Position numbers and translations under genes: made by a program
The notes under the pieces: generated by a model
Database searches by the model: none
Told to the model about the DNA's origin: nothing
What the model saw: the letters and a program-made list of their open reading frames with translations, nothing else
NCBI GenBank assembly: GCA_029210745.1
Contig: JARGFI010000020.1
Coordinates: 1-46,406, forward strand
Reading direction: 5' to 3'
DNA: 46,406 bases
From: Desulfuromonadales bacterium
GTDB lineage: Bacteria; Desulfobacterota; Desulfuromonadia; Desulfuromonadales; JAHYIW01
Part shown: positions 1-18,646 of the stretch, piece after piece
Layout of the letters: each line of letters begins with the position of its first letter
Position numbering within the stretch: position 1 is the first letter of the stretch

Positions 1-3000
1 CTGCCCGGATCGAAACTGTACGAACCGTCGGCGGCGAGGGTGAAGCTGCCGCCATTGTCCCCGGCCACACCGACGCCCACATTGCCGGGCACGCCCGCCA
101 CGGCACTGACGCTGTGGGTGTCGCTGGTGTCAATATCGGTGTCGTTGACAAGCACGCCGCTGGCCACATCGACGGTCAGAATCGCATTCTCCGAGGTGGA
201 ACCGGTATCGGCAACCGCCACCGGGGTATCGTTGGTGCCGGTAATGGTGATGGTGACCAGCTGCTCATCAAACCCGTCATGGTCATCAGTGACCCGAACG
301 GTAAAGGTGTCCGTAACACTCTGGCCTGCCGCCAAATCCTGAACAGCAGAGGAGGTGCCATCCGTCCCGTTATTGAGGGTGTACGTCCACTCGCCGCTGT
401 TCCCGTTGAGTGCCAGTCCGCCGTAATCACCGGCGGCACTCCCTTCAATACTCCAGGTGGGTGGGGCGACGGCATCCAAATCGTCGGAGGTCAAAGTCCC
501 GGTAGCGGTCAGCTTAATGTCTTCCTCAACACCGCCGGTGGCGTCACCGCTGATGACGGGATCGTCATTGGTTCCCGTGATGGTGACGGTAATCACCTCC
601 GGCGTGCCGTCGGCAGAGGTGACGGTGATCGTATCTTCATAAGTAACGCCATCAACGAACTCGTTGTGGGCATCATTCATGGTATAGACCCACGCCCCGG
701 TACTATCCATCGAGAACTTGCCGTAACCATTGTCGCCCGGCACAAGCGTCAGAACGTTGAATTCAGCGGGGTTGTCGACATCGGTGACGTTGAGATCACC
801 GCTGATGATCTGTGCCGCGTCGGTTTCGACAGCTGTTCCGCTGATGTCACCGCTAATCTGCGCCTCATCGTTGGTCCCGTTGATGGTACTGGTGATATCG
901 GCGGGGGTTCCATCGGCGGTAATAACAGCAATCGTATCCGTCAGTGTTTCGCCAGCGCCCAATTTCTGGATTGCCTCCAGGCTATTGTCGACAAGATAGC
1001 CCCAAGTTCCATCCGCATTGAGACTGATACTTCCATAATCACCAAGGATGTTCCCGGGAACAAATTCGTCCAAGCCGTCGACATCATTGATTGTCAAAGC
1101 TCCCCCGGTTAGCAACACATCCGCCCCAGCGACGACGGAGACGTCCATGTCTTCAGTTACACTGCCGCTGGTGTCGCCACCGATAACTGCCGCATCGTTG
1201 CTGCCGGTGATGGTTATCGTCACCGTCTCGCTGTCCGACAACGGCGTCGCATTGTCGTCCGTCGCCGTGACCGTATAGGTCAAGATCAGCGTCTCGTCGT
1301 TCGCCAGGTAATCGAACGCTTCGCTGCCGGAATCAAAGCTCCAACTCAGAGTGCTAGTCGTCTGCATGTTGTCCAGAACGGGCACTGGGGTCACGCTGAA
1401 CATCGCCTGTAACTCTGCATCCGTCGGCGCCGCCGCATCCAGACGGTCGGATGACCCACTCACCGCCAAAGAGAAGGTCGCACTCACCACATCGGTGACA
1501 TCAGTGTCCGAGACCGTCAATGTCCCACTTGTACTCAACGCCGCGTTTGTCTCAGCCAGGCCCACGGCGTCAGGTCCGTTGGTAATCACAGGCGCATCGT
1601 TGCTGCCGGTCACGGCGATAGTGACGGTCTGAACCGCGCTGGTCGCACCCATGTCGTCGGTGGCGGTGTAGGTAAAGCTGACGACTCGATTTTCTCCAAC
1701 CGCCAGATCGTCGAAAGCGCTTCCGGGATCGAAGGAGTAACTGCCGTTCGCGGCGAAGCTCAAAGTTCCCTCGGCAACGCTATCGACCAGCTGGTAGCTG
1801 GCGATGGTGCCGTCCACGTCGGTGGCGGCCGGGACGTTGCTGGTGAGGAGTGCGTTCTCCCCGGTGGTCGCGCTGCTGTCGACGGCCACCGGAGCGTCGT
1901 TCACCGGCGTGATATCGAGGGTGGCACTGCCGGTTACGCGCTGTGGGTCGGAGATGCCGTTGGTGGTGCCGTTGTCGGTGATGTCGTAACTGAAACTGAC
2001 GCTGGTATCGTCATCGGTCGCCGGGGTGTAGCTCCAGGTGCCATCGCCGTTATCGACCAGAGTCCCGCTGCCGGAGCTGATCCCCAGGTTGCTCGCCGTG
2101 AGGGTGTTACTTTCGACATCGGCAGCGTTGCCCAGCAGTTCGGCCTGAGTGATGAGGCGCACTCCGCTGTCTTCGGCGATGGAGCCCAGTGTGACCGTGC
2201 TCGTCGTCGGTGCGTCGTTGACCGGAGTAATATCCAGGGTGGCGGTAGTGTTGATAGTGCTGGTTCCGTCGCTGATATCGTAGCTGAAGCTGACATTGGT
2301 ATCGTCGTCAGCTGCCGGAGTGTAGTTCCAGGTGCCGTCGCCGTTATCGCTTAGGGTGCCGCTGCCGGAGTTGTTGATCAGAGTGCTGGCGGTGAGGGTG
2401 TCGCCGTCGATATCGGTGGCGCCCGCCAGCAGTTCGGCCTGGGTGATGATCAGCACGCCGCTGTCTTCAGCGATCGGGGTCAGTGTCACGGCGCTTGATG
2501 TCGGCGCATCGTTCTGCCCGGTGATCGTCACGGTTACCGTCTCGGTGCTTGTAGCACCGGCGGCATCGGTCACTGTATAGGTAAAGCTGTCGGTAGCATT
2601 CTCGCCTGCCGCCAGATATTCGAACTGTCCATTGGGAGCGTAGCTGAAGGTGCCGTCACTGTTGTCGGTGACGCTGCCCAGCGTCCCGGTCGTGTCGATG
2701 GCAAAGGTATGGGTATCGCCGGTATCGGCATCGCTGTAGATGGAACTGATGGTGATGCTCGGGCCGTCCTCGGCCACAGTATCTGTCACCGCCAGCGCCA
2801 GCGGCGCATCGTTGACGTCATTGACCGGGATATTCAGCGCCTTGGTATAGCTCAATCCACCAGCATCGGTCACCTGTACATTGATAGCCAGGGACGGATT
2901 CGTTTCGAAATCGATAGTGCCGTTAACGCGTAATTCGTTGCCGACAATCGTGACCAGACCGTTGTCGAGATCATTGCTGCCATCACCGGAAACAAGGGAA

Positions 3001-5837
3001 TAAGTGAAGCTGTCACCGGCATCGTCATCCGTGGTGGTCAGGAGCCCAATCACCGTTCCGGGCATGGAATTCTCGTTAACCGTGCTTGACGATAACGAGA
3101 TATCAGTCGGAAATTCGTTGACATCGGTAACGTTAAGGACGACATCGGCGACAACAGAGATATTCCCTGCCGCGTCCTGGGCTTGAACGCCGAGGGTGAA
3201 GTTGCTCGGCAGGTTCTCGAAGTCGTTAGCGGGCGCAGCGGCATCGATTCCGGCGGTGGTCAGGGTGATCCGACCGCTATTGTCGATAGCGAAGTAGCCG
3301 TTATCATTACCGCTGGTTATCTGAAAGGCCGTTACGCCAACGGCGTCGGTGGCAACCACCGTGCCGACGACTGTCCCGACCAGGGACTGGTTTTCATCAA
3401 AGCTGAAAGCTTGTCCGCTGGCAACAGCGGGCCCGGTGCTATCCAAAGTCAAAGTCAAGCTGCCGATGTTACTGGTATTTCCGGCGACATCGGTCTGCCT
3501 GATGTCGACGCTGTTGGCACCCTCAATCGCCGTAAAGTTCGATGTCCAGGTTGATCCACCATCGATCGAGTACTCAACCACGGCACCGGCCTCGATGCCG
3601 GTCAGGCTCAGGGTGCCACTACTGCTGATTTTGTCGGTGGAGCTGCTGCCGCTATCGAGGGACAGCGCCACGCTCGGGGCGATCGGTGCGGCGGTGTCGA
3701 GAGTGAAGGTCAGGCTGCCGACGCTGCCGGGGTTTCCAGCGGCATCGAGCTGCCGGACCGTGACCGTGTTGACCCCTTCTGCCGGGGTGAAATTTGTCGA
3801 CCAGTTCAGACCACCGTCGATGGAGTATTCGAGCGTAGCTCCGGCTTCGACAGCGGTTAGCGCGAGAGTGCCGACCGTGCTGATCTGGTCCGCGCCGCTG
3901 GTGCCGCTGTCTGTGGTCAGGGAGACTCCGGGAGCAGTCGGTGCAATCAAATCAACGGTGTAACTTGTGGTGGCGGTGGCGGTGCCGATGCCCCCGCCGA
4001 AACCGGTGACGATGGCAGCATTGACTGTGTTGTCTGCTGCGAGGTCGGTGCCGCTGACATTGATGCTAAAGGTTTTGTCGGCCTGAACCAGGCCGGTGGA
4101 ATCGACGCCGTTGACCGTCAAGGTAATTGTATCACCGACCTGGGCATCGCCGCCGACGCTGCCGGTGATCGCAACGATACCACCGGCTTCGGCGATATTG
4201 ATGATATTATCGCCAGTAATCGTCGGAACCAGTGCGATCGTCGGCACCGGGACGGTGATGTCGACGGTGTATTCTGCGGAGTCGGTGGCAGTGGCGGGGT
4301 TGCCGGCGGGATCGCTGGTAGTGATACTGGCAACGACTGTTTTGTCACTGTCAGCAACCAGATCGGATCCGGCGACAGCGATACTGAAGGTCATGTCGGT
4401 CCGCACCTGACCGGTATATTCAAGGTCATTCACCAACAGGGTAACGGTGTCACCAATCTGGGCATCGCCGCCAGCCGTGCCGGTAATGGCAACGGCACCG
4501 TTAGCTTCGGCGATATTGATGATGTCGTCAGCGGTGATATTTTGATCAAGGGTAATCGTCGGGACTGGTGGCGTAATGTCGACCGTGTAACTTGCGCTGT
4601 CGGTGGCGCTGCCGGGGTTGCCCGCTCCGTCGCTGGTGATGATGCTGACAGTGACGGATTGATTGCTGTCGGCGACCAGGTCGGACCCGGCCACGTCAAT
4701 ACTGAAGGTCATGTCGGCGCGCACCAGGCCGGTGTAGTCAACGTCGTTCACCGTCAGGGTGATCAGATCACCGACCTTGACCTCGCCGCCGAGCGTGCCG
4801 CTGACCACAACATCTCCAGCTGCTTCGGCAATATTAATGACGCCGTCGGCGGTGATCGCTGGATCAAGGGTGATGGTCGGGGCTGGAGCCGTGATGTCAA
4901 CACCGTACCCTTCACTGTCGGTGCCGGGGTTGAGAGCGCCATCCGTGGTGGTGACAGCGTCGATCGTTTGATCGCTGTCGGCGGCCAGATCGGCACCGGC
5001 AACATTGATGCTGAAGCTTTTATTGTCGAGAACCGTGCCGGAGTATTCAACACCGTTCACTGTCAAGGTGACGGTGTCACCGACCTGGGCTCCGCCGCCG
5101 ACTGTTCCGCTAAGAGCAATGGTACTGTTCGATTCGGCAATATTAATAATATCATCGGCGGTAATGTCGTTATCCAGGGTGATGGTCGGGTCGGAAATGT
5201 CGACAACTTTTTGCGCGGCTTTGTACACTGAAGGCCGGGGGGTGATGACCGGCACAACCGGATCTGTCTCGACATCGACAAGCAGTTCGTTGGGCATCGG
5301 CGAGCCCAGACCGGGGCCTTTCCCGGATACAGCGGTTCCGTTGCTGACCTGGGTCATCGGTGCGGTTAATGTTGCTTTGTCGATGAGCGGGATATTGTCG
5401 GGGTTGTCTGCCGGTGTTTCCAGTGAGTCTGGTTCTGCGTCAGGCTCAAGGACGTCAACATGTTCACTCACCACCCGCAAGCTGCCGGCTTTGGCCAGAT
5501 TGGTGATGCCAACCATTTTGAAAAGATCGGCCAGGGTTGTCTGTTCGCTCCCTGCGAGCGGCTCACTACCGGTGTCGCCGGTGAAGGACGCATCGAAAAT
5601 GACCGGATAGACTGTATTGCCAAGAGCCTCAAGGGCACCATTGGGGATGATCACGTAACTGCCATCGGTAAAGCTTAACAACAAATCGACATCCGCGACA
5701 TCGACCGCACTGAGCTCTGTCGCCCCATGCGGAATGATAATCGTTCCGTTCGGAGTAATAACGGCACGGACAATGTTTTGTCCTGCTCCGAACGCTGTTG
5801 CCGCCGGGCCCTGTTGGTTATCGTTATGGTTTGCCAT
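1..5837 (-). CDS. Giant repeat adhesin secreted by type I secretion (partial, runs off left edge)
   Basis: The frame opens at an ATG preceded by AGAGG and was in frame at each of several points read down to base 3, so at least 1,945 residues lie in the window and the C-terminus is missing. There is no N-terminal signal peptide, as expected for a type I substrate. Residues 1-211 form a non-repeated head containing DLLLSFTDG, reminiscent of BapA-type prefix domains. Next come four Ig-like repeats of about 105 residues (roughly 212-630, each starting near TITLD), two Ig-like repeats of about 85 residues with EYSIDGG, two cadherin-like repeats (DENQSL, VNENSMPG), then many VCBS/cadherin-like repeats ending in NDAP or GTNDxP, probable calcium-binding linkers. 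It follows the exporter genes by 50 bases. A C-terminal secretion signal is inferred, not seen. No LapG-type dialanine site was recognised. Confidence 0.9.
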   Translation of the reverse strand, partial: MANHNDNQQGPAATAFGAGQNIVRAVITPNGTIIIPHGATELSAVDVADVDLLLSFTDGSYVIIPNGALEALGNTVYPVIFDASFTGDTGSEPLAGSEQTTLADLFKMVGITNLAKAGSLRVVSEHVDVLEPDAEPDSLETPADNPDNIPLIDKATLTAPMTQVSNGTAVSGKGPGLGSPMPNELLVDVETDPVVPVITPRPSVYKAAQKVVDISDPTITLDNDITADDIINIAESNSTIALSGTVGGGAQVGDTVTLTVNGVEYSGTVLDNKSFSINVAGADLAADSDQTIDAVTTTDGALNPGTDSEGYGVDITAPAPTITLDPAITADGVINIAEAAGDVVVSGTLGGEVKVGDLITLTVNDVDYTGLVRADMTFSIDVAGSDLVADSNQSVTVSIITSDGAGNPGSATDSASYTVDITPPVPTITLDQNITADDIINIAEANGAVAITGTAGGDAQIGDTVTLLVNDLEYTGQVRTDMTFSIAVAGSDLVADSDKTVVASITTSDPAGNPATATDSAEYTVDITVPVPTIALVPTITGDNIINIAEAGGIVAITGSVGGDAQVGDTITLTVNGVDSTGLVQADKTFSINVSGTDLAADNTVNAAIVTGFGGGIGTATATTSYTVDLIAPTAPGVSLTTDSGTSGADQISTVGTLALTAVEAGATLEYSIDGGLNWSTNFTPAEGVNTVTVRQLDAAGNPGSVGSLTFTLDTAAPIAPSVALSLDSGSSSTDKISSSGTLSLTGIEAGAVVEYSIDGGSTWTSNFTAIEGANSVDIRQTDVAGNTSNIGSLTLTLDSTGPAVASGQAFSFDENQSLVGTVVGTVVATDAVGVTAFQITSGNDNGYFAIDNSGRITLTTAGIDAAAPANDFENLPSNFTLGVQAQDAAGNISVVADVVLNVTDVNEFPTDISLSSSTVNENSMPGTVIGLLTTTDDDAGDSFTYSLVSGDGSNDLDNGLVTIVGNELRVNGTIDFETNPSLAINVQVTDAGGLSYTKALNIPVNDVNDAPLALAVTDTVAEDGPSITISSIYSDADTGDTHTFAIDTTGTLGSVTDNSDGTFSYAPNGQFEYLAAGENATDSFTYTVTDAAGATSTETVTVTITGQNDAPTSSAVTLTPIAEDSGVLIITQAELLAGATDIDGDTLTASTLINNSGSGTLSDNGDGTWNYTPAADDDTNVSFSYDISDGTSTINTTATLDITPVNDAPTTSTVTLGSIAEDSGVRLITQAELLGNAADVESNTLTASNLGISSGSGTLVDNGDGTWSYTPATDDDTSVSFSYDITDNGTTNGISDPQRVTGSATLDITPVNDAPVAVDSSATTGENALLTSNVPAATDVDGTIASYQLVDSVAEGTLSFAANGSYSFDPGSAFDDLAVGENRVVSFTYTATDDMGATSAVQTVTIAVTGSNDAPVITNGPDAVGLAETNAALSTSGTLTVSDTDVTDVVSATFSLAVSGSSDRLDAAAPTDAELQAMFSVTPVPVLDNMQTTSTLSWSFDSGSEAFDYLANDETLILTYTVTATDDNATPLSDSETVTITITGSNDAAVIGGDTSGSVTEDMDVSVVAGADVLLTGGALTINDVDGLDEFVPGNILGDYGSISLNADGTWGYLVDNSLEAIQKLGAGETLTDTIAVITADGTPADITSTINGTNDEAQISGDISGTAVETDAAQIISGDLNVTDVDNPAEFNVLTLVPGDNGYGKFSMDSTGAWVYTMNDAHNEFVDGVTYEDTITVTSADGTPEVITVTITGTNDDPVISGDATGGVEEDIKLTATGTLTSDDLDAVAPPTWSIEGSAAGDYGGLALNGNSGEWTYTLNNGTDGTSSAVQDLAAGQSVTDTFTVRVTDDHDGFDEQLVTITITGTNDTPVAVADTGSTSENAILTVDVASGVLVNDTDIDTSDTHSVSAVAGVPGNVGVGVAGDNGGSFTLAADGSYSFDPG

Positions 5838-5887
5838 GGCCACCTCTGTTTACATGCATCGTCTTCAGTGCACTTGAATAATTTGTC

Positions 5888-8023
5888 TTACGTGGTTGTT
5901 TCCGTGTCGTTCAGTGCGTCTGCGTCAGTTTCCGGCGCAACAGCGCACGGTTCTGTTTCTGGGGGTTCGGGAGCCCGCAGCTCGGACAGGGCATCAAACC
6001 GGTTACAGATTTGTTGCGTGCCGTGTGCGGCGTGGTGGACGAGGGTTTCGAGTTGCCTGCCAAGCTGTTGCAGCGTGGTGCAAACCTCGCCCTGCGCCTC
6101 CTCAAGTCGCTGCTGCGACGCTTCGATGGCGGCCGTCAGGGGGGGAACCAGTGCGGAAATTCGGGAACAGATTTCCTGGCCACCCGTGTCGGTCGTCTGC
6201 GCGATGGTGTCGAGTTGACCACGGAGCTGTTGCAGATCCTGACTGAAATCGCGCTGTGTATTGCGCTGGATCTGCTGCGATTCTTTGACCCCGGTGGCCA
6301 GCTGTTCGATCACTTCGGAAACTTTTGAACGGACGGCTTCGTTGCCGGTTTCGGTCGCATTCAGAATTGTGTCAAGTTGGACGCCCAGCTGCTGCAATCC
6401 TTCGTGCAAGGCCCTGTTTGCACTGGCGAAAAATTGGCTGGACTTGTCGGCATCAGCGGCCAGGCGGGACGCCAGCGTCGAGATTTGGGTGCCGATGGTG
6501 TCCGTGCCGTTTTCCGCGGAATTTAAAATTGCGGTGAGCCGGTCGCCAAGCTGCTGCGATTCCTGACGGAAGGTATTGTTGGCGTGGTTGAGTAAAATGT
6601 GTGTTTCCCTGGCATCGGCTGCAAGGTGCACCGTTAATTCGGAAATTTGCGCGCTGATTTCGCCGTTGCCATTCTCCATGCTGTCGAAAATCGTGCCGAG
6701 CCGGGTACCCAGCTGCTGCAACTCCTGGCGGAAACCGTTCCCGGCCTCGGTCTGCTCAACCAGTGCCCGCAACATATCGGCGCGTTGGTTCTGAAAGTCG
6801 TCGATTTCAGCGGCCAGCGCCCGTTGTTGCAAGCGCGCCGCCTCAGCCAGCCTTTCCCGCTCTTCGATCTGGTGCGCATCGATCAGCGCTCTTGATTGCC
6901 GTTGTTCATCAACCTGCATGTTCAGCAGTTTATGTGTTTCTTTCGCGGTTCCGGCCAGATGAACGGTCAATTCAGAAATTTGGGAGGCAATTTCTCCGGT
7001 CCCTTTACCCAGCACGGTGAATGCGGCATCGAATTGCCTGCCAAGCTGTTGCAGTTCGCCACGGAAATTATTGTTGGCCACATTTTGCTCTGTCAGGGCA
7101 TGGAGCATGTCCGCCCGTTGTTTTTTGAAATCGTCGATTTCAGCGGCCAGCGCGCGTTGGCGCTGCCGACCGGCTTCAGCCAGGCGTTCTTCAATGCGGA
7201 GCAGGATGTTCGTTGTTGCGTCACTGGCAACCGCTTCACCGGTGGCGGCGGAGGGCGCTCTGAAACTGACACTTTCGAACGACAGCGCAGTTTCAATATG
7301 GCGGGCAATTTCCGAGCTGAGCAGGGAGAAAATATCCCCCTGCAAGCGCCGGATGCCGACCATCATCAAGCCCAGAATAATCGATCCGAGCAGGCCGAAC
7401 ATCGAGGCCGAAAAGGCAATCCCCATCGACTGCATCGGCGCCTTCATGCGTTCGATCATGGTCCTAAATACCAGCAGCGGACTTGCATTCTGCATGTCGA
7501 TATCGGCAAAACTGCTGATCAGGACGGAAATATCATTGAGGGTCGCCAGCAGGCCGATAAAGGTTCCGAGCAACCCCATTCCGACCAACAGCCCGGTCAG
7601 GTATTGAGGTAAGGCGTTGCGGCGCACCAGTCGCGCCCTGGCATTGGTCAGTTCATGTTCAATCGCCACCTGCTCCTGGTGGGAAATAGAGCGATTGCCT
7701 GATGAGGCCACCATTTGCAGCAGGCAGGCAATATCGACTGTGTACTTGGCGGCCATTTCCCGCAAAGTCGCCGAGTCGGCTTTATTATGGATCGCCCTGG
7801 AAAATTCGACCAGTACCCTGGCTTCGCGAACCAACCGCACAGCGTTGAGAAGGGTTAATATCCCGCCGACCAGAATAATCGTAAAGATCGTGTAGTTGAT
7901 TTGCGGATGGGGGTTGCGGGTGATGGTTAATTTGATCGCATCCAGAAAAATTGCCGATCCGGTCAGGAGAAACACAAAGGGCAGCGATATCAGGATGTAG
8001 TAGACTTTGAGTTGTTTAAACAT
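5888..8023 (-). CDS. MotA/TolQ/ExbB-like proton-channel protein with long repeated helical tail (SiiB-like)
   Basis: 711 residues. Predicted membrane segments lie near 9-29, 44-64, 141-163 and 198-223. The last two carry GMGLLGTFIGLLATL and GIAFSASMFGLLGSIILG, typical of the MotA/TolQ/ExbB family. Residues 270-680 are a glutamine-rich helical tail. It holds a 111-residue duplication (QRALAAEIDDF followed by QRADML, starting near 281 and 392) and then QLG-type units whose key leucines fall at 438, 492, 546, 600 and 654, exactly 54 residues apart. The start has GAGGG seven bases upstream. It lies between hlyD-like and adhesin genes. By analogy with SPI-4 SiiB it would form a proton channel with the MotB-like protein at 9368-10045. 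The domain family is clear, while the secretion role is inferred from context. The Zorya ZorA protein is another long-tailed relative. Confidence 0.85.
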   Translation of the reverse strand: MFKQLKVYYILISLPFVFLLTGSAIFLDAIKLTITRNPHPQINYTIFTIILVGGILTLLNAVRLVREARVLVEFSRAIHNKADSATLREMAAKYTVDIACLLQMVASSGNRSISHQEQVAIEHELTNARARLVRRNALPQYLTGLLVGMGLLGTFIGLLATLNDISVLISSFADIDMQNASPLLVFRTMIERMKAPMQSMGIAFSASMFGLLGSIILGLMMVGIRRLQGDIFSLLSSEIARHIETALSFESVSFRAPSAATGEAVASDATTNILLRIEERLAEAGRQRQRALAAEIDDFKKQRADMLHALTEQNVANNNFRGELQQLGRQFDAAFTVLGKGTGEIASQISELTVHLAGTAKETHKLLNMQVDEQRQSRALIDAHQIEERERLAEAARLQQRALAAEIDDFQNQRADMLRALVEQTEAGNGFRQELQQLGTRLGTIFDSMENGNGEISAQISELTVHLAADARETHILLNHANNTFRQESQQLGDRLTAILNSAENGTDTIGTQISTLASRLAADADKSSQFFASANRALHEGLQQLGVQLDTILNATETGNEAVRSKVSEVIEQLATGVKESQQIQRNTQRDFSQDLQQLRGQLDTIAQTTDTGGQEICSRISALVPPLTAAIEASQQRLEEAQGEVCTTLQQLGRQLETLVHHAAHGTQQICNRFDALSELRAPEPPETEPCAVAPETDADALNDTETTT

Positions 8024-8062
8024 GAAATACCCTCTTTTGAAAAATTATATTTGTTATGAAAC

Positions 8063-9367
8063 TCAATTGGCTCGAAAGGCGCCGTCACGAAATTTCAATA
8101 GTGGTGAAAGAATGTATGACAAGATGGTTCGTTTGCCGACAGCAATATCGGCGCTCGCCGCCATGCCGGGCATCAGCACTCCCGGTTGCCGCGCGCGTGA
8201 CCGCAGCGTTGAGATATCAACCTCCACGTTGACCCGGTAATAATGGTTGTCCCGCTCATCGCGCAGCGTGTCGGCACTGACATCGGTCACGTAGCCTTCA
8301 AAAGTGCCGTAGGTTGCATAGTCATAAGCGCCCACCCTGACGCGAGCCGGTAAACCACGGCGCAGGTGGGCGCGGTCGTTCGGGTTTGAGCGGGTCTGAA
8401 TGACGATGCGCTGATCACTCGGCGTGATTTCGAGCAGCACTTCGCTGGGACGAACAACCGCGCCGATAGTCGTGATATTCAATTTATTGATGAGTCCAGC
8501 CACCGGGCTGCGGACGATATTTCGATCAAACCGGTCAGCACTCGATTTAATTTCGTGTGTCAATTGCTGAATTTCCTCACGCACTTTTGTCAAGGCGGAG
8601 GAGGCTTCGGCGCGAAAGCGTGCAACAGCTTCCTTGATCCGCGATTCAGCCTCCGCATGTGCGGCTTCCAGTCGCGGCATCGCATTGGTTGTTGCGGCGA
8701 TTTCCGCGTTAAGCTGCTGAATACGCATTTGGGCATCGAGTACTTCAAGTTCGGAGGCGGCGTTATCTTTTCTCAATTTATCGATAACCTGATATTTCTG
8801 TTTTGCCAGATCGAGTTCATCGAGCAGATTCCGGTGTTTGGAATTAAGTTCGGCAAGTTCACTTTCCTTCTGCCTGCTCATCGCCTCCAGGACCTTGACC
8901 TCTTCGGCAAGTTGGGTACGCCGCGCCTGCCAGGCGGCGGTTTCCACGTTGATCACGCGGGGATCACCCAGCCCTGGCGGAAAGGCAATCGTGTTATTGC
9001 CGTGCAGTTCGGCGTTCAAGCGGGCTTCGCGTCCGAGCAAGGCATCAATCTTCGACTGCTCTTGTCCCAGGCTGGAGCGGGTCTGGATATCCGATAGCTC
9101 AATCAACGGCTGTCCGGCCGCCACGACCTCCCCCTCCCGGATCAATATGTTGCGAACAATGCCCCCCTCCAGATGCTGGACAAGCTGCGATTTTCCGGCC
9201 GGGATGATTTGACCTTCGGTCCGCACGATGACGTCAACTTCGGCGAATCCGGCCCACAACATCACGCTGCTACTGCTGAGCAACAACAACAGCACAAAAG
9301 TGCGTTGTGGTGACAGCCCCGTAAAAAAGGCCGTCAGTTTGCGTTGGTTGAGAAAGCGCGACATCAT
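8063..9367 (-). CDS. HlyD-family type I secretion periplasmic adaptor (membrane fusion protein)
   Basis: 434 residues. It has a short cytoplasmic N-terminus, one membrane segment near 22-42, and a biotinyl-lipoyl-like segment containing QHLEGGIVRNI and REGEVV. A long coiled-coil hairpin follows (about 100-285, rich in E, L and Q), then the second lipoyl half (RSPVAGLINKL) and a beta-barrel region. It ends in the HlyD-type signature LSYILSPL followed by LKFRDGAFR. Such proteins join the inner-membrane ABC exporter to TolC. Its ATG directly abuts the TGA of the preceding MotB-like gene (TGAATGATG), so translation is probably coupled. Either of the two adjacent ATGs could be the start. Confidence 0.95.
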   Translation of the reverse strand: MMSRFLNQRKLTAFFTGLSPQRTFVLLLLLSSSSVMLWAGFAEVDVIVRTEGQIIPAGKSQLVQHLEGGIVRNILIREGEVVAAGQPLIELSDIQTRSSLGQEQSKIDALLGREARLNAELHGNNTIAFPPGLGDPRVINVETAAWQARRTQLAEEVKVLEAMSRQKESELAELNSKHRNLLDELDLAKQKYQVIDKLRKDNAASELEVLDAQMRIQQLNAEIAATTNAMPRLEAAHAEAESRIKEAVARFRAEASSALTKVREEIQQLTHEIKSSADRFDRNIVRSPVAGLINKLNITTIGAVVRPSEVLLEITPSDQRIVIQTRSNPNDRAHLRRGLPARVRVGAYDYATYGTFEGYVTDVSADTLRDERDNHYYRVNVEVDISTLRSRARQPGVLMPGMAASADIAVGKRTILSYILSPLLKFRDGAFRAN

Positions 9368-10045
9368 TCAATAGGCCCGAACCCTGACCACCGAGGCATT
9401 CGGATTTTCGTTTCCTTCAAGCACCGAGATATCGATATTCTCGCTCGGCATCAACATCTCGATCAAGATATTGCGGACCGACATGGCCCGATAGAAGCCC
9501 ATGCGCCGGGCTTCGGAGAAACCGACCGGGACTTCAACATAGATTCCGGCTTTTTGGCTGGCAGCGACCGGTGCCAGCAATTCGGTCAACTGTGCGTGCT
9601 CGTCAGGAGTAAATGCCACCGCATCATTTTCGAAGCGCACGACAACTTCTGACTCATAGCTGTTGGTTACATCGATTCCCTTGAGCGGTTTTGGCATGTC
9701 GAATTTAGCTTCGATGGTTTGTGCCGAACCGGCGGATTGAACGTCCTGAGCCGCGCGCTGTGCAAGGAGCATATTCAACCGTTTGATCTCGCGTTTCAGC
9801 GCAACATTTTCGCTCATTGCGTCGGTGGCGCTGGCGCTAACTGGCGGTTTTTGTTGTTCGACAATCGGCGGTTGCTGGGTAGCAGGCTGCTTGCTCGATC
9901 GCCCCAGTTCGAGGGCGAACATGAAGACCGCAACGATCAGAATCGTCAGCAGAAAAAGCAGGTTCAAAATCAGGTTGGTCGTGGCGTCGACATAGCCCGG
10001 CCAGAAAATATCCGAGCCGTCATTATCATCGTGACGTGCAGACAT
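9368..10045 (-). CDS. MotB/SiiA-like inner membrane protein with OmpA-like periplasmic domain
   Basis: 225 residues. WPGYVDATTN is followed by a single membrane helix (about 23-47). Asp20 sits just before the helix, as the proton-binding aspartate does in MotB, TolR and ExbD. A proline/glutamine-rich linker (51-70) and a short helix (76-97) follow, then a C-terminal domain (about 133-225) that looks OmpA-like: FENDAVAFTPDEHAQL, YRAMSVRNIL and a terminal RVRAY. The canonical peptidoglycan-binding aspartate and asparagine positions are not evident, so wall binding may be altered or lost. The gene sits nine bases after the TolC gene and abuts hlyD. By analogy with SPI-4 SiiA it would pair with the MotA-like protein at 5888-8023. 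The role is inferred. Confidence 0.82.
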   Translation of the reverse strand: MSARHDDNDGSDIFWPGYVDATTNLILNLLFLLTILIVAVFMFALELGRSSKQPATQQPPIVEQQKPPVSASATDAMSENVALKREIKRLNMLLAQRAAQDVQSAGSAQTIEAKFDMPKPLKGIDVTNSYESEVVVRFENDAVAFTPDEHAQLTELLAPVAASQKAGIYVEVPVGFSEARRMGFYRAMSVRNILIEMLMPSENIDISVLEGNENPNASVVRVRAY

Positions 10046-10054
10046 AGTGACTAC

Positions 10055-11779
10055 CTATCCTTTTGCTGGGGGTGCAGAGAATACTTGCCCCCTTTGATTG
10101 AGGTACGAAGTTCGGTCCCGCCCGGTAGCGGCGGTGTCATCGGCCGTTGCCCACGGGGTGCCGAAGGTCAGGCGAATCAGCTGGGCCACGGCATTCATTT
10201 CAAGAATATGCAGGCTGACCAGGCGGGAACGGACCTGATACATCCGGTCATAGACATCAAGGAGATCCAGCAGCGACTGGTTGCCGGACAACATCCGTTT
10301 TGACATGGCTTGCGCCGCGGTTGTAATCGATTTCAGTTCCTGATAGCCCGACGCAATTCGCCCACGGGTTGTGGTCAGCGCCGCGTAGTTGACCGACAGC
10401 GATTTAACTACCAGCCGTCGCTGATCGTCGAGTCGGTAGAGCAATTCCTTGTGGCGCAGGGCACGTTCGGTGAGGTAGTGGTAATCACTGCCGCCGCTGA
10501 ACAGATTCCAGTTCAATACCAGCATGGCCCGTCGATCCCGCTGCCCCGCAGAGCTGGTGTCGCCGCCGGCATGAAGCGAGTGCGTGTCGGTGTATTCAGC
10601 ATCCAGCCGCGGCAAAAAGCGACTTCGTGCGGCGCGCTGATCAACCTGCGCCGCTTCCAGTTCGGCCGCCAGGGAGGCAATTTCAGGATTGAGCTCGATG
10701 GCTGAGGCAACCGCTTCATTGAAGGACGTTGGCAGTAGCGCACCACCGATGTCAGCAAGTTCCGGCAAACGGATTTTTTGTGGCACAAGATTGGTCAAAC
10801 GAACAAATTCGATCCTTGCCGCGGTATGCACGGACTCCTGTTCCAATCGGGATGACAGGGTCGCCTCAATCCGCGCGCGAACCCGCGCCATGTCGGAAAT
10901 ACTGGCGGCACCCGCCTCGGCGCGTTTTTCAATGTAGCTGAGAAGTTCCGCGAGCTGAACTTCGTAATCACGGGTCAAGTCGGTCTGCAACCGGCTTGAC
11001 ACCAGTGAAAGGTAGGCTTCAACCGTCGCGATATAGGCATCACCGTCGCTGATGCGGTAATTTTCTTCACGCGCCTTTTCGAGCAGCAGGCGTCGGCGCC
11101 AATCAAAATAAGTGGGCAGGTTGAAAATCGGCAGGCGCAAAGTTAACGCGATATCGCGCCGCGAGTGGTTGTCGGATGGGACGAGTTCCCCCGTTGTCTT
11201 ATCGGTTTCAACGCCGGGTTCAGACCGCTCGACGCCTCCGGCAACGCGCAACGTTACTGAAGGACGCAACAACGACAGCGCCTGCTCGGCTTGCGCTTTG
11301 GCCTGACCGCTACGCGCCATTGCAGCGAGACTTTGCCGATTGAAGGTGCGCCCGGCATGAATTGCTGCCGATAAATCGGTCTCTTCGAGCAGACGCGCAA
11401 ACTCATCGGGCAGGAGCTGATTTTCAGCCATGGTTTCGACAAACTGCTCGTCAATGTTCGCGAGCATCGAGACTTCCGACATGCCGACCAGCCCGGCCAG
11501 ATTTTGGGTTGCAGGAAGAGCAAAACTGCCCCCCCCTTGAGGCCCCCCTTCGGTTGGTGCGGTCACAGGCGCTGCTGGCGCAGAGCTGTCAGGCCCGGAT
11601 AATCCGTCTTGCCGCGATGCAGCGGGCGGCGTGGTAACTGGTTGGGACGCCGCCGGGGGCTGGTTCGAGTCGGGCAGAACGTTATCAGCAGCGACTGTCG
11701 TCGCTGGCGCCAGAACGAATTGCATGATCAGGATAAGAACGGCACAATGGCGCCACGTGAATCGGTTAATCACAAACAT
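10055..11779 (-). CDS. TolC-family outer membrane channel of type I secretion
   Basis: 574 residues from this ATG. A signal peptide (VLILIMQFVLAPATTVAA) is followed by a proline/alanine-rich stretch, a predicted helical segment, and two outer-membrane efflux (OEP) repeats. The repeats show TLRVAGGVERSEP, LSGNQSLLDLLDVYDRMYQ and HILEMNAVAQLIRLTFG, the last typical of the type I secretion branch. It is the first gene of the secretion cluster. Start choice is uncertain. AGGAG lies only one base before this ATG but seven before the in-frame GTG at 11773, which may be the true start. An upstream GTG at 11863 has no ribosome-binding site and would put 28 extra residues before the signal peptide. 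Confidence 0.9.
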   Translation of the reverse strand: MFVINRFTWRHCAVLILIMQFVLAPATTVAADNVLPDSNQPPAASQPVTTPPAASRQDGLSGPDSSAPAAPVTAPTEGGPQGGGSFALPATQNLAGLVGMSEVSMLANIDEQFVETMAENQLLPDEFARLLEETDLSAAIHAGRTFNRQSLAAMARSGQAKAQAEQALSLLRPSVTLRVAGGVERSEPGVETDKTTGELVPSDNHSRRDIALTLRLPIFNLPTYFDWRRRLLLEKAREENYRISDGDAYIATVEAYLSLVSSRLQTDLTRDYEVQLAELLSYIEKRAEAGAASISDMARVRARIEATLSSRLEQESVHTAARIEFVRLTNLVPQKIRLPELADIGGALLPTSFNEAVASAIELNPEIASLAAELEAAQVDQRAARSRFLPRLDAEYTDTHSLHAGGDTSSAGQRDRRAMLVLNWNLFSGGSDYHYLTERALRHKELLYRLDDQRRLVVKSLSVNYAALTTTRGRIASGYQELKSITTAAQAMSKRMLSGNQSLLDLLDVYDRMYQVRSRLVSLHILEMNAVAQLIRLTFGTPWATADDTAATGRDRTSYLNQRGQVFSAPPAKG

Positions 11780-12139
11780 ACTCCTGCGCCTGAAAATAGT
11801 TGCGGCGGAAAAGATTTGCGGCGGAAAAGATTTGAACGCGTTATGTGCATAGCAGGGGTACACGTCAGCCAGACGGTGTTTTCACCGCTTGGCATGGAGG
11901 TAAATGGCGGTTTTTCTGAGAAAAAACTCAACACAAAAAATCAATCAACGGACTGATTTACCGTGATGAATTCATGCCTGGGCGATTCGTCGAAACGGTT
12001 CAGGCCGACGACAGAAAAACAACCTATAATGTATCTGCAATCATCGCGCCGACCTGCCGCGAGTCGCGGGGCGAGATGATCGGCAAGACAACCGTTCTGT
12101 TCTTTCCTTTCGCCCCCCCTTCCCCTATAATGCCGCGCG
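11780..12139. other. Divergent intergenic region between secretion operon and helicase gene
   Basis: About 360 bases with no convincing gene. A 16-base unit containing GGCGGAAAAGATTTG is repeated in tandem near 11803-11835. TATAAT hexamers occur on the plus strand at 12025-12030 and 12126-12131, but neither has a good -35 box 17 bases upstream. The second would start transcription almost at the helicase ATG, giving a nearly leaderless message. The promoter for the minus-strand secretion operon must lie here, but I cannot place it. Confidence 0.4.
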
Positions 12140-14686
12140 ATGAGCAATGTAACGATTGAAGATGATTACTCGACCGACGTGCGAGACGAGATGCGGGTGG
12201 CGATTGCGGCGGTCGGTGGTAATGAGGTTTTTTTTCGCGGATTGACCGGTGCCGACCGCTTTGTGGTTGCGGTCGAAGTGCTGGCGCGCGGCAACGACGG
12301 CGCGGTTCCGGCTCTCACCCAACGCTGCCGTTACGGTGATGTGGTTATCCACAACCACCCCTCCGGCGGCCTCCAGCCCTCAACGGCCGACCTCTGTGTC
12401 GCGGGAAGCCTGGGGGAGTTGGGGGTCGGCTTTCATATCGTCGATAATTCGGTTGAAAATGTATACAAGGTGGTTGAGGCGTTCGACCGTCGGGAGACGT
12501 TGCGGATTGCTCCTGAGCGGATCAATGAACTGCTTGGTGCCGCAGGTCTTGTCGCCAGCCAGTTGGCGGGGTACGAAGATCGTCCCGAGCAGTTGCGGAT
12601 GGCGTTCAACGTTGCCGAAGCGTTCAACCATGATCGTCTGGCGGTGATCGAGGCCGGCACCGGCACCGGAAAAAGTCTCGCCTATCTGGTTCCCGCCGTC
12701 CTCTGGGCACTCGCGAATGAAGAACGGATCGTCATCTCGACCAATACGATCAATCTCCAACAGCAGTTGATCAGCAAAGATATCCCCCTTTTGCAGCGCG
12801 CCAGTGGTCTCGAATTCCGCGCCGAACTGGTCAAGGGGCGCAACAATTATCTCTGCCGCCGTCGGGCGGCAACCGTGCAGCGCGAACCGACCCTTTTCGG
12901 CGGCGACGACGGCGGAGAACTGACGACGATCTATGCCTGGGTCGACCAGACCGCCGACGGGTCGAAAGAAGATCTGCCGTTCGTGCCGAAGCACGAGGTG
13001 TGGGAAGAGGTGCGCTGCGAAGTCGACCAATGTCCGCGCGTCAAGTGCGCCCATTATCAGCAATGTTTCTTCCATCGCGCCCGGCGCCGCGCGGCGAACG
13101 CCAATATCCTGGTGGTCAATCATGCCCTGCTACTGGCCGACCTGGCCCTGCGCCTGGAGACCGCCAATTATACCTCCAGTGCCGTACTCCCCCCCTTCGC
13201 GCGCATCATTCTCGATGAAGCACACCGTCTGGAGGATGTCGCGACCAGCTTCTTTTCCGCCGCGGTCTCGCGTTACAGTTTCGCCCGCATCCTTAACCGT
13301 CTCAGCCACCAGCGCAAAGCCGAGCGCGGGCTGCTGCCGCTGTTGCACAAACAGCTCGGGGGGAATCTCGGGCAACATGCTGCAAACCAGTATCGCGAAC
13401 TCAACGGGCGTATCGAACGTTTGCAGAGTGCGCGGTTGACCTTGCAGGAGAGTGCTGCGGGGGAGGTCGAAGAACTCGGCCAGCTACTCTGTGGTGGCCA
13501 CGGCAAGCATGTCTCCGCCGGGTTTGAGGTGAAGCAGCGGCTGGTGCGCCCCTTTGTCGATGGCGACGACTGGCAGGAAATCAAGGCGCGGGTGCGTGAG
13601 CTGATGTCCCTGACGGGGGACCTGGCACGCGATCTGCGCGCCTTGATCAAGGCGGTCGAGCTGCTGCCCGACGATGAGCTGGTTGCCAAAACGGCGGCCA
13701 CCTGCACCGATCTGTTCGGCCTCGGTTTACGCCTTGACGGGCTGAGTGCGGATCTCGGCGCGTTCATCGGTGGCGACGACCAGGTGTGTTCCTGGTTTGA
13801 ATGCCGCGAAGCGCGGATCGGTCGCGGGCGGGGGTTGATCACCCGGTTGTGCGCGGCCAACCTCGATGTCGCCGTGCAACTTAACAAAGCGCTCTACAGC
13901 CGTTTCAAGACGGTAGTCATGACCAGCGCGACACTCACCGTCGCCGGATCGTTCACCTTTTTGCAGCGGCGGGTTGGTCTCGATCTGGCCGAAGCGAATC
14001 GCCTGAGCGAGCTGCTGCTCAACTCGCCGTTCGACTACGCCCGCCAGGCACTCCTCGCCGCACCGGCCGACATCCCCGAGCCGAACCGGCCCGGTTTTGC
14101 CGAAGCGGTACGCGACCTCAGCGAGCGGGCGCTACTGCTGGCGGGCGGGCGGTCTTTCGTCCTCTTTACCGCCTACTCCCTGCTCGCGCGAGTTTACGGT
14201 GAGCTGGCACCACTGCTCGCCGCCCACGGTTATCGCTGTCTGCGTCAGGGGCAGGACAGTCGTCACCGCTTGTTGCAACAGTTCACCGACGATCCGACCA
14301 GCGTGCTGTTTGCCACCGATTCGTTCTGGGAAGGGGTCGATGTTCCAGGGCGGGCGCTCGAACAGGTGATTATTGCCCGCCTGCCGTTCAAGGTGCCGTC
14401 GGAGCCGATCCAGGAGGCGCGCGTCGAGGCGATCGAGCGTGCCGGAGGCGATCCGTTCATGGACTACTCGGTGCCGCAGGCGGTGATCAAGTTCAAGCAG
14501 GGTTTCGGGCGGCTGATTCGCAATAAGGAAGATCGTGGCGTCGTGCTGATTCTGGACAGCCGGGTGGTGCGCAAGGGCTATGGCCGGATGTTTCTGCGCT
14601 CCCTCCCCGGTGTCCCGGTGGCGTCCGGCACCAGCGCGGAAGTGTTCGCCAGGATCAAGGAGTTTTTTGCGACGGAAGAGTGGTGA
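12140..14686 (+). CDS. dinG: JAMM/RadC-like domain fused to DinG-family iron-sulfur helicase
   Basis: 848 residues. The N-terminal 115 residues hold a JAMM motif: Glu29 (NEVFFRG), His71 and His73, Ser81 and Asp84 (HNHPSGGLQPSTAD), the arrangement found in RadC and JAB metalloproteases. The rest is an XPD/DinG superfamily 2 helicase. It has Walker A EAGTGTGKS (171-179), DEAH box (359-362), motif V FATDSFWEGVDVPG and motif VI QGFGRLIR. Cys239, Cys298, Cys303 and Cys309 match the four iron-sulfur ligands of DinG by spacing (x4, x5), and Cys293 is an extra. It probably unwinds DNA or R-loops, while the target of the JAMM domain is unknown. No Shine-Dalgarno is visible before this ATG. The next ATG (residue 18) would still keep the JAMM motif. 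Confidence 0.92.
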   Translation: MSNVTIEDDYSTDVRDEMRVAIAAVGGNEVFFRGLTGADRFVVAVEVLARGNDGAVPALTQRCRYGDVVIHNHPSGGLQPSTADLCVAGSLGELGVGFHIVDNSVENVYKVVEAFDRRETLRIAPERINELLGAAGLVASQLAGYEDRPEQLRMAFNVAEAFNHDRLAVIEAGTGTGKSLAYLVPAVLWALANEERIVISTNTINLQQQLISKDIPLLQRASGLEFRAELVKGRNNYLCRRRAATVQREPTLFGGDDGGELTTIYAWVDQTADGSKEDLPFVPKHEVWEEVRCEVDQCPRVKCAHYQQCFFHRARRRAANANILVVNHALLLADLALRLETANYTSSAVLPPFARIILDEAHRLEDVATSFFSAAVSRYSFARILNRLSHQRKAERGLLPLLHKQLGGNLGQHAANQYRELNGRIERLQSARLTLQESAAGEVEELGQLLCGGHGKHVSAGFEVKQRLVRPFVDGDDWQEIKARVRELMSLTGDLARDLRALIKAVELLPDDELVAKTAATCTDLFGLGLRLDGLSADLGAFIGGDDQVCSWFECREARIGRGRGLITRLCAANLDVAVQLNKALYSRFKTVVMTSATLTVAGSFTFLQRRVGLDLAEANRLSELLLNSPFDYARQALLAAPADIPEPNRPGFAEAVRDLSERALLLAGGRSFVLFTAYSLLARVYGELAPLLAAHGYRCLRQGQDSRHRLLQQFTDDPTSVLFATDSFWEGVDVPGRALEQVIIARLPFKVPSEPIQEARVEAIERAGGDPFMDYSVPQAVIKFKQGFGRLIRNKEDRGVVLILDSRVVRKGYGRMFLRSLPGVPVASGTSAEVFARIKEFFATEEW

Positions 14687-14773
14687 GCGGGGGGCGGCAG
14701 AGCCTTTTTGTCAGCTGTCTTTCAGTGAACCGCAGCAGCGCATTTCGCGGCGTTCTTTTCTCCTCCCCCGCCC

Positions 14774-14802
14774 TTGACAACCCCGGAGCCCGTTGTTATG
14801 TT
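14774..14802 (+). promoter_or_regulatory. Sigma-70-type promoter of the hrcA operon
   Basis: TTGACA at 14774-14779 is a perfect -35 box. After a 17-base spacer, TATGTT at 14797-14802 matches four of six -10 positions. Transcription would begin at about 14809, right at the edge of the CIRCE operator, so HrcA binding would block initiation. Confidence 0.8.
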
Positions 14803-14809
14803 GACACCA

Positions 14810-14836
14810 TTGGCACTCCAATGATATGAGTGCCAA
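14810..14836. promoter_or_regulatory. CIRCE operator (HrcA binding site)
   Basis: A perfect inverted repeat TTGGCACTC - 9 bases - GAGTGCCAA. It differs from the CIRCE consensus (TTAGCACTC-N9-GAGTGCTAA) by one compensated base per arm. It lies between the promoter and hrcA, giving autorepression of hrcA-grpE-dnaK that is relieved by heat shock. Confidence 0.96.
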
Positions 14837-14886
14837 GTTTTGCTGTAGGCCGGGTTGCGACCGACTTGCTTTTTGGAGGAGTCATC

Positions 14887-15918
14887 ATGTCTTCGCCGCT
14901 TAAAGAACGTCATCGCCTCATTCTTGTCGCGATCATCGAAACCTATATCGCTACCGCCCAACCGGTCGGGTCGAAGGCTCTTGCCGCGCGCGATGACATC
15001 CCCTGGTCTGCGGCCTCGGTGCGCAACGTCATGGCCGAACTTGAATCACTGGGGTATCTGCGCTCACCGCACACCTCTGCGGGACGGGTTCCGACCGAGA
15101 GCGCCTACCGCGTCTACGTGCAGAGTTTGCGCGGGGTGGCCGGTCTCGATGCCTCGGCCCGGTTGCGAATGTCGAACAGCTATCCTCATCCTGAACATCA
15201 GTCGGTCGAGGAAAAATTGCGGGCGGCCGGACGCCTGCTGTCTTCCCTGACACAATGTGCGGGGGTGGTCGTGGTGCCGCGACTGGAGACGACCATCTTT
15301 CGGCAGATTAATTTTGTGCCGCTCCAGGGGCAGCGCATTCTGGCGGTTTTTATTACCCAGTCGGGGTTGCTGCAGCAAAAACTGATTGAGCTTGACAGGC
15401 CGTTGCAGCGCAGCGAGCTGGAACAGATGAGCAACTATTTGAACGCGACCCTGCGCGGGCTTAATATGCAGCAGGTCAAGTTGCGGATTGCCGCTGAAAT
15501 GGCGGCCGAGCGCGCCCTCTACGATCACCTGCACGCGCAGGCTTTGCAGTTGTCGAAAACGGTCTTGCATGGGGATGGTTTTGAACAGGTTATTATTGAG
15601 GGAACGGTCCAGATGTTTGATCAACCGGAATTTTCCGATGCCGACCGGATGAAACGGTTACTGCACGCATTTGAACAAAAAAGTCGTTTGATTGAAATGC
15701 TGGAGAAAAGTCAGGAATCTGCCGGAGTTCAGGTGGTGATCGGTGAGGATGGCGATTTTGCCGGGTGCAGTTTGATCTCTGCCCGCTATACTGGACGTGG
15801 CGGACCGAGCGGGACGCTCGGTGTGATCGGTCCGAACCGCATCGATTATTTACGCGTGATTCCAATGGTTGGCTACACCGCCCGCATGCTCGGGCGGGCA
15901 CTCGATGATAAATCCTAA
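14887..15918 (+). CDS. hrcA: Heat-inducible transcription repressor HrcA
   Basis: 343 residues, normal for the family. An N-terminal winged-helix domain (LKERHRLILVAIIETYI, SVRNVMAELESLGYL, SPHTSAGRVPTE) binds CIRCE. A central GAF-like part and a C-terminal region (IGEDGDFAGCSLISARY, LGVIGPNRIDY) follow. The start at 14887 has GGAGG nearby and matches the conserved N-terminus. An in-frame start at 14830 lies inside the CIRCE and is rejected. It is the first gene of the operon, with grpE 19 bases downstream. HrcA depends on GroEL for activity in studied bacteria, but no groEL gene lies in the window. Confidence 0.98.
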   Translation: MSSPLKERHRLILVAIIETYIATAQPVGSKALAARDDIPWSAASVRNVMAELESLGYLRSPHTSAGRVPTESAYRVYVQSLRGVAGLDASARLRMSNSYPHPEHQSVEEKLRAAGRLLSSLTQCAGVVVVPRLETTIFRQINFVPLQGQRILAVFITQSGLLQQKLIELDRPLQRSELEQMSNYLNATLRGLNMQQVKLRIAAEMAAERALYDHLHAQALQLSKTVLHGDGFEQVIIEGTVQMFDQPEFSDADRMKRLLHAFEQKSRLIEMLEKSQESAGVQVVIGEDGDFAGCSLISARYTGRGGPSGTLGVIGPNRIDYLRVIPMVGYTARMLGRALDDKS

Positions 15919-15937
15919 GTAAGGGGAATATGTTTTA

Positions 15938-16555
15938 ATGAGCAAGAAGAAGACGCAACAAAACCAGGCGGACACGTCCGCAGAGCACCAGGGGAACGAC
16001 ATGGATGGGGAAATAACCGCTGGCGAGATCAAGGAGCCTGCGGAAAACACCCCGCCGACGCTGGAGGAACAGCTTGCTGCCAGTCGTAGCGAGGCTGAAG
16101 AGAACCGCGATCAATATTTACGGGCCTGTGCCGAGCTGGAAAATTTCCGCAAGCGCGCCCAACGTGAAAAGGAAGATATCTGTCGCTTTGCCAACGAAAA
16201 AATCTTGCGTGAAATGCTGCCGGTAATCGACAATCTCGGGCGTGCCATTGAGCATGCCGATGGCGAGGCCGCCGATTCCAAGGGGCTGATCGAGGGGATA
16301 CAACTGACCCTTGATCAGTTTGCCAAGGTGCTCGACCAGTTCGGTGTCAAGGAGATTGCCGCACTCGGCGCGCCGTTTGACCCGGCTTTTCACGAGGCGA
16401 TGGGGCAGATTGAAAGTGCCGAGCATCCGGTCAACTCGGTCGCTCAGGTCTTTCAAAAGGGCTATCTCCTTAACGAGCGTTTGTTGCGTCCGGCACTGGT
16501 GATGGTGGCCAAGGCGCCGGCGGCTCATGAACCGAAAAGCACCGACACAGAATGA
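15938..16555 (+). CDS. grpE: GrpE nucleotide exchange factor
   Basis: 205 residues. A charged, variable N-terminus leads into a long helix (EEQLAASRSEAEENRDQYLR), the conserved ENFRKRAQREKEDICRFA segment and MLPVIDNLGRAIEHA. The C-terminal beta domain has FDPAFHEAMGQ and VFQKGYLLNERLLRPALVMV. It releases ADP from DnaK. It lies between hrcA and dnaK, preceded by AGGGGA at a rather long spacing of about 11 bases. Confidence 0.98.
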   Translation: MSKKKTQQNQADTSAEHQGNDMDGEITAGEIKEPAENTPPTLEEQLAASRSEAEENRDQYLRACAELENFRKRAQREKEDICRFANEKILREMLPVIDNLGRAIEHADGEAADSKGLIEGIQLTLDQFAKVLDQFGVKEIAALGAPFDPAFHEAMGQIESAEHPVNSVAQVFQKGYLLNERLLRPALVMVAKAPAAHEPKSTDTE

Positions 16556-16610
16556 CGACAGAGTCGTGTTAGCGATCTAAAAATCATACGACCAGGGAGG
16601 TTACAGCATT

Positions 16611-18521: not shown

Positions 18522-18554
18522 TCTTTCCCCTGCTCTTGTCGGAGATTACCAATG

Positions 18555-18602
18555 AACAACGGGCGGCCACACCATTGAAAAGTCGGTCGCCCGTTGTTTT
18601 TA
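18555..18602 (+). terminator. Intrinsic terminator between dnaK and dnaJ
   Basis: AACAACGGGCGGCC (18555-18568) pairs with GGTCGCCCGTTGTT (18585-18598) over 14 bp (one mismatch, G opposite T) with a 16-base loop, followed by a short T-run. It lies 33 bases after the dnaK stop and 45 before the dnaJ start. It would reduce dnaJ expression relative to dnaK. Confidence 0.85.
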
Positions 18603-18646
18603 CCTTGACCAATGCCAAACCGGGTCGAGGGTGAAGGAAATATGTT

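Follow-up and report, generated by a model that had tools for sequence, protein, structure and literature searches.

A type I secretion locus with a SiiA-like motor pair forms a six-gene module in environmental bacteria

Salmonella pathogenicity island 4 (SPI-4) exports the giant adhesin SiiE and encodes two proteins, SiiA and SiiB, that have been called its ‘unique’ accessory proteins (PMC5466336). Together they form a proton channel (PMC6272769, PMC12607715) and are listed among the 5:2 motors (PMC12204202), while their mechanism is described as open (PMC12607715). Loss of siiA and siiB leaves SiiE secretion intact and affects its retention at the surface, which is raised by acidification and lowered by the protonophore carbonyl cyanide m-chlorophenylhydrazone (CCCP; PMC6272769, PMC12607715). 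In a 2025 survey covering 379 motor proteins, ‘secretion’ occurs a single time and HlyD or TolC neighbours go unmentioned (PMC12505986), and according to a 2026 paper, control of adhesin display outside the Lap scheme awaits identification (PMC13090378). In the open-licence literature we found no use of the terms ‘SPI4-like’ or ‘SiiA-like’; subscription journals may contain an earlier description. Here we analyse a 46,406-nt stretch of DNA from a Desulfuromonadales bacterium (the window, which is the entire contig C31, JARGFI010000020.1, of a 2.7-Mb genome in 118 contigs). It carries most of a locus that probably encodes a dedicated type I secretion system (T1SS) with its own 5:2 ion motor, holding or releasing a half-exported adhesin. 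This motor add-on, previously known from one Salmonella island, is here part of a fixed six-gene module.

The locus and its missing exporter gene

Five genes lie on the minus strand of the window, encoding a TolC-type channel, a MotB-like protein, an HlyD-type protein, a MotA-like protein and a giant adhesin. They are separated by 9 nt (tolC–motB), 0 nt (motB–hlyD), 39 nt (hlyD–motA) and 44 nt (motA–adhesin); the motB-like stop codon ends at 9368 and hlyD starts at 9367. These coordinates and gaps agree with the first-pass annotation, made from the letters alone, which had described five tightly spaced genes on one strand with abutting motB stop and hlyD start codons. The features are as follows.

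10055–11779, minus strand: TolC-type outer-membrane channel, SiiC position (Pfam OEP, E 3.6e-30; TIGR01844, E 5.9e-43, under the TIGR01844 cut-off)
9368–10045, minus strand: MotB/SiiA-like stator protein, 225 aa, with one transmembrane helix, a linker and a peptidoglycan-binding-type domain (AlphaFold2 model, PDB match, SiiA profile)
9986–9988, minus strand: codon of Asp20, the expected ion-carrying residue, in a WPGYVDA motif (conservation in homologues)
9371–9682, minus strand: predicted SiiA-type peptidoglycan-binding domain, residues 122–225 of the MotB-like protein (structure and profile match to SiiA)
8063–9367, minus strand: HlyD-type membrane-fusion protein, SiiD position (TIGR01843, E 3.8e-106)
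5888–8023, minus strand: MotA-like channel protein, SiiB position, 711 aa (NCBIfam and fold; conserved NPHPQINY, GMGLLGTFIGLL and AFSAS motifs)
7259–8023, minus strand: predicted channel domain of the MotA-like protein, residues 1–255, with four hydrophobic helices (model and alignment)
5891–7258, minus strand: predicted cytoplasmic coiled-coil tail of the MotA-like protein, residues 256–711, with a 54-residue repeat (model)
3–5843, minus strand: giant adhesin, N-terminal 1,947 aa, with cadherin, VCBS and immunoglobulin-like repeats, cut by the contig end (Pfam and NCBIfam)
5454–5843, minus strand: conserved N-terminal adhesin domain of about 130 aa, the proposed retention domain (conservation across adhesins)

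For tolC, the ATG at 11779, which is followed by a signal-peptide-like stretch, is a likelier start than the GTG at 11863, from where the reading frame is open. A scan for promoters and terminators returned no more sites than shuffled sequences did, leaving an operon promoter unsupported.

A type I system requires an ATP-binding cassette (ABC) transporter, and none is encoded within the 46,406-nt window. The first-pass annotation mentioned neither this absence nor the fact that the adhesin reading frame runs past the contig end. The best ABC transporter match in the same genome lies on contig C67 (locus L061), which opens with 1,120 aa of an adhesin C-terminus, the ABC gene coming next. The first 68 bases of C67 are an exact copy of the last 68 bases of the window's reverse complement. 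Joined across C31 and C67, the adhesin measures about 3,045 aa, with repeats-in-toxin (RTX) motifs toward its C-terminus. Such a join could in principle be false, caused by repeats, but this is countered by the 65–74% identity of the C67 transporter to the ABC transporters occupying the equivalent position in eight further genomes. The first 150 residues of the transporter (L061:3360-5447) had no match to the C39-like N-terminal domain of LssB/HlyB-type transporters, a domain that it seems to lack in recognisable form. The locus thus encodes an ABC transporter, an HlyD-type protein and a TolC-type channel together with a large repeat substrate, as is characteristic of a T1SS. Beyond it, at 12140–19759 on the plus strand, lie ordinary neighbours: a DinG-type helicase gene, hrcA, grpE, dnaK and dnaJ.

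A SiiA relative within a fixed gene order

Among NCBIfam models the MotB-like protein matches the transmembrane part, and no more, of PRK09039 (E 1.4e-6). An AlphaFold2 model built with 52 sequences was confident for the C-terminal domain, and the best Foldseek match of this predicted domain among 350,542 PDB chains was the peptidoglycan-binding domain of SiiA (6qvp; E 9.6e-7, TM score 0.75). VIA gave 6qvp a Z of 12.8, with a root-mean-square deviation of 2.2 over 99 residues, compared with 10.6 for the next match, MotB reaching about 9. When the domain was taken alone, its profile likewise ranked SiiA first among PDB sequences (E 6.5e-4), a match that the profile of the full-length protein did not return. 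In the profile alignment, the RLGYER of SiiA falls on RMGFYR of the window protein, placing R181 and R186, both invariant in 52 homologues, on R162 and R167 of SiiA (numbered by adding 102 to the sequence position, an offset deduced from the residues that the chain spans). These two SiiA arginines are needed for pH-dependent peptidoglycan binding (PMC12607715). Asp20 is invariant in 19 close homologues and at least 90% conserved in 52, and it lies within the single predicted transmembrane helix. An N-terminal transmembrane helix with an aspartate, a linker and a SiiA-type peptidoglycan domain make up the predicted protein, and its homology to SiiA is demonstrable at the level of profile and model. 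The SPI-4-like kinship that had been proposed for the locus is supported.

TolC, HlyD and the adhesin repeats are unambiguous by Pfam and NCBIfam. The MotA-like protein matched only marginally, Pfam MotA_ExbB reaching E 0.017 and NCBIfam ZorA_3 E 1.8e-7. Residues 1–255 are predicted to form a motor-type helical core that resembles ExbB, TolQ and ZorA at weak E-values (3e-3 and up). T154, S205 and S207 are invariant in 32 aligned sequences and presumably occupy the positions expected for the polar ring. With a motor-type transmembrane core and polar residues in the A subunit and a transmembrane aspartate in the B subunit, the pair has the features of the 5:2 motor superfamily, the fold matches being weak by E-value. 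The tail, a predicted long helix in which a 54-residue unit recurs, differs in length between homologues, whole proteins ranging from 404 to 742 aa (median 498). Tail length did not correlate with adhesin length (rho 0.07, p 0.72).

A survey of the class found a close MotA-like homologue in 20 of 194 genomes, flanked by the same genes in the same order in the loci fetched. Scanning 84,980 species genomes, seeded with two conserved peptides so that more distant relatives are under-sampled, yielded 67 loci in Desulfuromonadia, Geobacteraceae, Desulfobulbaceae, Rhodocyclales, Methylophilaceae and Comamonadaceae. By a six-frame profile check, the order tolC-motB-hlyD-motA-adhesin-ABC was kept in 67/67 loci without exception, and none had a channel gene on the opposite strand; all six parts are present in 28 loci, the remainder being cut by locus or contig ends. 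A gene order fixed to this extent is far beyond chance. The genes of the operon co-diverge (Mantel r 0.94–0.98), and in 32/52 homologous loci the motB and hlyD reading frames share 1 or 4 nt. Searches of plasmids returned no relatives. We conclude that the six genes make up a set of their own, fixed and carried by dozens of environmental bacteria from two phyla, the loci fetched from named genomes belonging to Desulfobacterota and Betaproteobacteria.

Some arrangements at or near these loci deserve mention. In Limnohabitans and other Comamonadaceae-type loci (L119, L124, L127, L128, L132), a second tolC-ABC-hlyD set lies directly upstream of the six-gene operon, placing two complete exporters side by side. 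Weak matches in genomes G242 and G352 from the class survey proved to be different loci; the one in G242 (L059:8798-11026) comprises a MotA-like gene of 314 aa, weakly related to the T1SS-linked family, followed by a gene of 426 aa, possibly another motor system.

The T1SS-linked MotA family occurred in only two of 398 Pseudomonadota genomes (E about 1e-116), and a weaker relative in some 95 (E 1e-13 to 1e-26). In sampled loci this relative usually adjoins a MotB-like protein with a WPGFVDA motif, identified by NCBIfam as PRK09039 in one example, and has no T1SS genes alongside, with one exception (L174). In a tree, the T1SS-linked family forms one side of a branch with 100/100 support and is therefore a lineage of its own, as the first-pass annotation had suspected. 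In the tree as drawn, without a known root, its betaproteobacterial members branch among Desulfobacterota, which suggests gene transfer. That annotation had also named an observation that would count against its reading, namely channel-pair homologues lying mostly away from type I adhesin loci. Inside the T1SS-linked family this is not the case (67/67 loci), whereas the more distant family with PRK09039 partners does sit elsewhere.

The exception, in one alphaproteobacterium (genome G656, contig C23; L174:1-8636 and L186:1-17388), is a second, divergent T1SS-plus-motor locus. Its order is adhesin, glycosyltransferase, hlyD on the other strand, ABC, motB and motA; the adhesin exceeds 5,300 aa, the MotB-like protein (255 aa) keeps an ExxR...YR...RN motif, and the MotA-like protein has 563 aa. 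A phmmer search with this MotB gave no match, and when Alphaproteobacteria were searched again for pairs like that of L174, hits other than L174 itself were mostly low-scoring (E 2e-10 or weaker). The locus suggests that motors and T1SS giant adhesins came together, or were rearranged, on more than one occasion. Glycosyltransferases that share an FPGQF N-terminal motif (L066:8712-10007 and L174:1144-2388, the latter Glyco_trans_4_3 by Pfam) adjoin the giant adhesin at two distinct T1SS loci of the motor type, and the adhesins there are possibly glycosylated.

Retention of a half-exported adhesin

T1SS substrates exit C-terminus first and N-terminus last. It is the N-terminus that is conserved in this adhesin family: over 44 adhesins, the first 150 residues reached a median local score of 209, compared with 52–66 for the 150-aa segments that follow. 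Neither Pfam nor NCBIfam matched the N-terminal domain of the window adhesin, and PDB sequences gave no match to the family profile; in one homologue, the domain gave a weak match to the BapA prefix (E 0.0036). LapG (PF06035) had no match in six genomes, those of the window, its sister and four further carriers, while a Caulobacter control matched; this negative comes from one Pfam model, which could miss a divergent protease. Since PF06035 was not found in these six genomes, a protease switch of the Lap type is not the obvious release device, and given also the gene neighbourhood, we consider a Lap-type reading unlikely.

The arrangement that we favour is a dedicated type I system for a giant Ca2+-binding repeat adhesin, equipped with its own 5:2-type ion motor. 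Five subunits in the MotA/SiiB position would form a ring around an axle of two SiiA-like subunits, Asp20 would carry the ion, and the peptidoglycan-binding domain would reach into the wall; the 5:2 stoichiometry, the ion flow and a contact with HlyD or the adhesin are what we infer from kinship. The adhesin would leave C-terminus first via ABC–HlyD–TolC, and its family-conserved N-terminal domain, the last to emerge, would remain in the conduit. There, the peptidoglycan-anchored motor, fed by a proton (or sodium) gradient, may hold or free this domain, in place of the protease switch (LapG/LapD) on which Lap-type adhesins rely. A likely role for the long cytoplasmic tail of the MotA-like subunits is contact with the ABC transporter or a cytoplasmic signal. 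Judging from Salmonella, the motor most likely controls adhesin retention. The earlier proposal that ion flow gates or powers adhesin release finds no support in the present data, and ‘retention control’ is the better wording because SiiAB loss in Salmonella spares secretion and affects retention.

Several points weigh against this interpretation. The T1SS-linked motor family is known here from sequences and predicted models only. The MotA-like protein matches known folds weakly (E 3e-3 to ExbB) and is tied to SiiB by gene position only. Co-divergence of the operon genes can partly mirror species descent. In Sii terms, the order is C-A-D-B-E-F in 67/67 loci as opposed to A-B-C-D-E-F in Salmonella, and the adhesin bears RTX repeats at its C-terminus whereas SiiE is described as non-RTX.

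Were the motor instead to power or restart export, pulling on or opening the HlyD–TolC conduit to thread a very long substrate beside ATP hydrolysis, one would expect just such large substrates (about 3,045 aa here; 2,000–3,000 aa or more at other loci) and a close link between motB-like and hlyD genes, which overlap or nearly abut in most loci. Yet giant T1SS adhesins such as LapA are exported without a motor of this kind, and deletion of siiA and siiB does not stop SiiE secretion (PMC12607715); we regard this possibility as unlikely. Motor family members are also known to move adhesins (PMC9389320), and the peptidoglycan-binding arginine pair kept in the SiiA-like domain is what a wall-anchored stator would need, so that the pair might turn or tug a surface-held adhesin and transmit force for adhesion or surface movement, like GldLM with SprB or AglRQS in gliding bacteria. 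We think this highly unlikely: no gliding gene set was seen in the operon, where none was searched for, and the literature consulted on Salmonella SiiAB reports no role in motility.

A channel pair that senses the state of the wall or the membrane potential and regulates something in the cytoplasm through its long tail, as in Zorya-like signalling or defence, sharing the adhesin operon for co-regulation only, would fit the ZorA_3 match of the MotA-like protein and its variable tail length, and ZorA likewise has a long, essential cytoplasmic tail (PMC11890865). The peptidoglycan domain is of the SiiA type, though, and in every locus the pair is flanked by T1SS genes, not defence effectors (no scan of the neighbours with ZorC/D/E models was made), in a strict six-gene order across two phyla; we thus judge a Zorya reading unlikely and give the sensor very little credence. 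A bolder reading is an undescribed class of adhesin machine, spread between Desulfobacterota and Betaproteobacteria by gene transfer, in which a peptidoglycan-anchored rotary motor, coupled mechanically through HlyD to a TolC-parked adhesin, would let the cell reel, hold or actively move its surface tether by proton-motive force. To us this seems improbable.

Comparison with known systems

Retention control, as favoured here, shares with Lap/Dvh-type systems a giant T1SS adhesin retained by its N-terminus. It differs in the release step, which in Lap falls to a LapG-type protease under cyclic di-GMP control; the Lap scheme is described without a motor pair (PMC13090378, PMC6272769). Zorya ZorA/ZorB resemble the pair in motor fold, in a GxGxxGTFxGL motif, in the long C-terminal helical tail of the A subunit and in a peptidoglycan-binding B subunit; apart from the neighbouring genes, they differ in that the B-subunit domain of the window is nearer to SiiA, and the ZorA matches are weak. 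The nearest sequence family in the 398-genome survey is the alphaproteobacterial MotA-like protein with its PRK09039-type, WPGFVDA-bearing partner, which, L174 excepted, has no adjacent T1SS or adhesin genes in the sampled loci.

Dozens of environmental species, spread over two phyla, carry the module, and some are in culture (Methylobacillus, Methylovorus, Rhodoferax, Limnohabitans), with Methylobacillus glycogenes JCM 2850 and Methylovorus sp. MM2 as examples of cultured carriers. The module offers non-pathogen models and alignments of great depth. It also points to candidate contact surfaces in the N-terminal domain of the adhesin, the MotB–HlyD coupling and the MotA tail, and thereby makes the role of an ion motor in a type I secretion system testable.

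Also among the closest systems is Salmonella SPI-4 (SiiABCDEF), with its TolC, HlyD and ABC exporter, its MotA/MotB-like pair and its giant Ca2+-binding repeat adhesin. The predicted SiiA-type peptidoglycan domain of the window, with the R162/R167 pair kept, adds to the likeness. Unlike in SPI-4, the adhesin here has an N-terminal domain without a close database match, and the system is found in other phyla, no named locus being from Enterobacteriaceae. The description of the locus as a distant, rearranged SPI-4-like set stands: the six genes are Sii-like and differently ordered. By its SiiA homologue we place the system with the Sii kind, and by its gene order we regard it as a variant of that kind.

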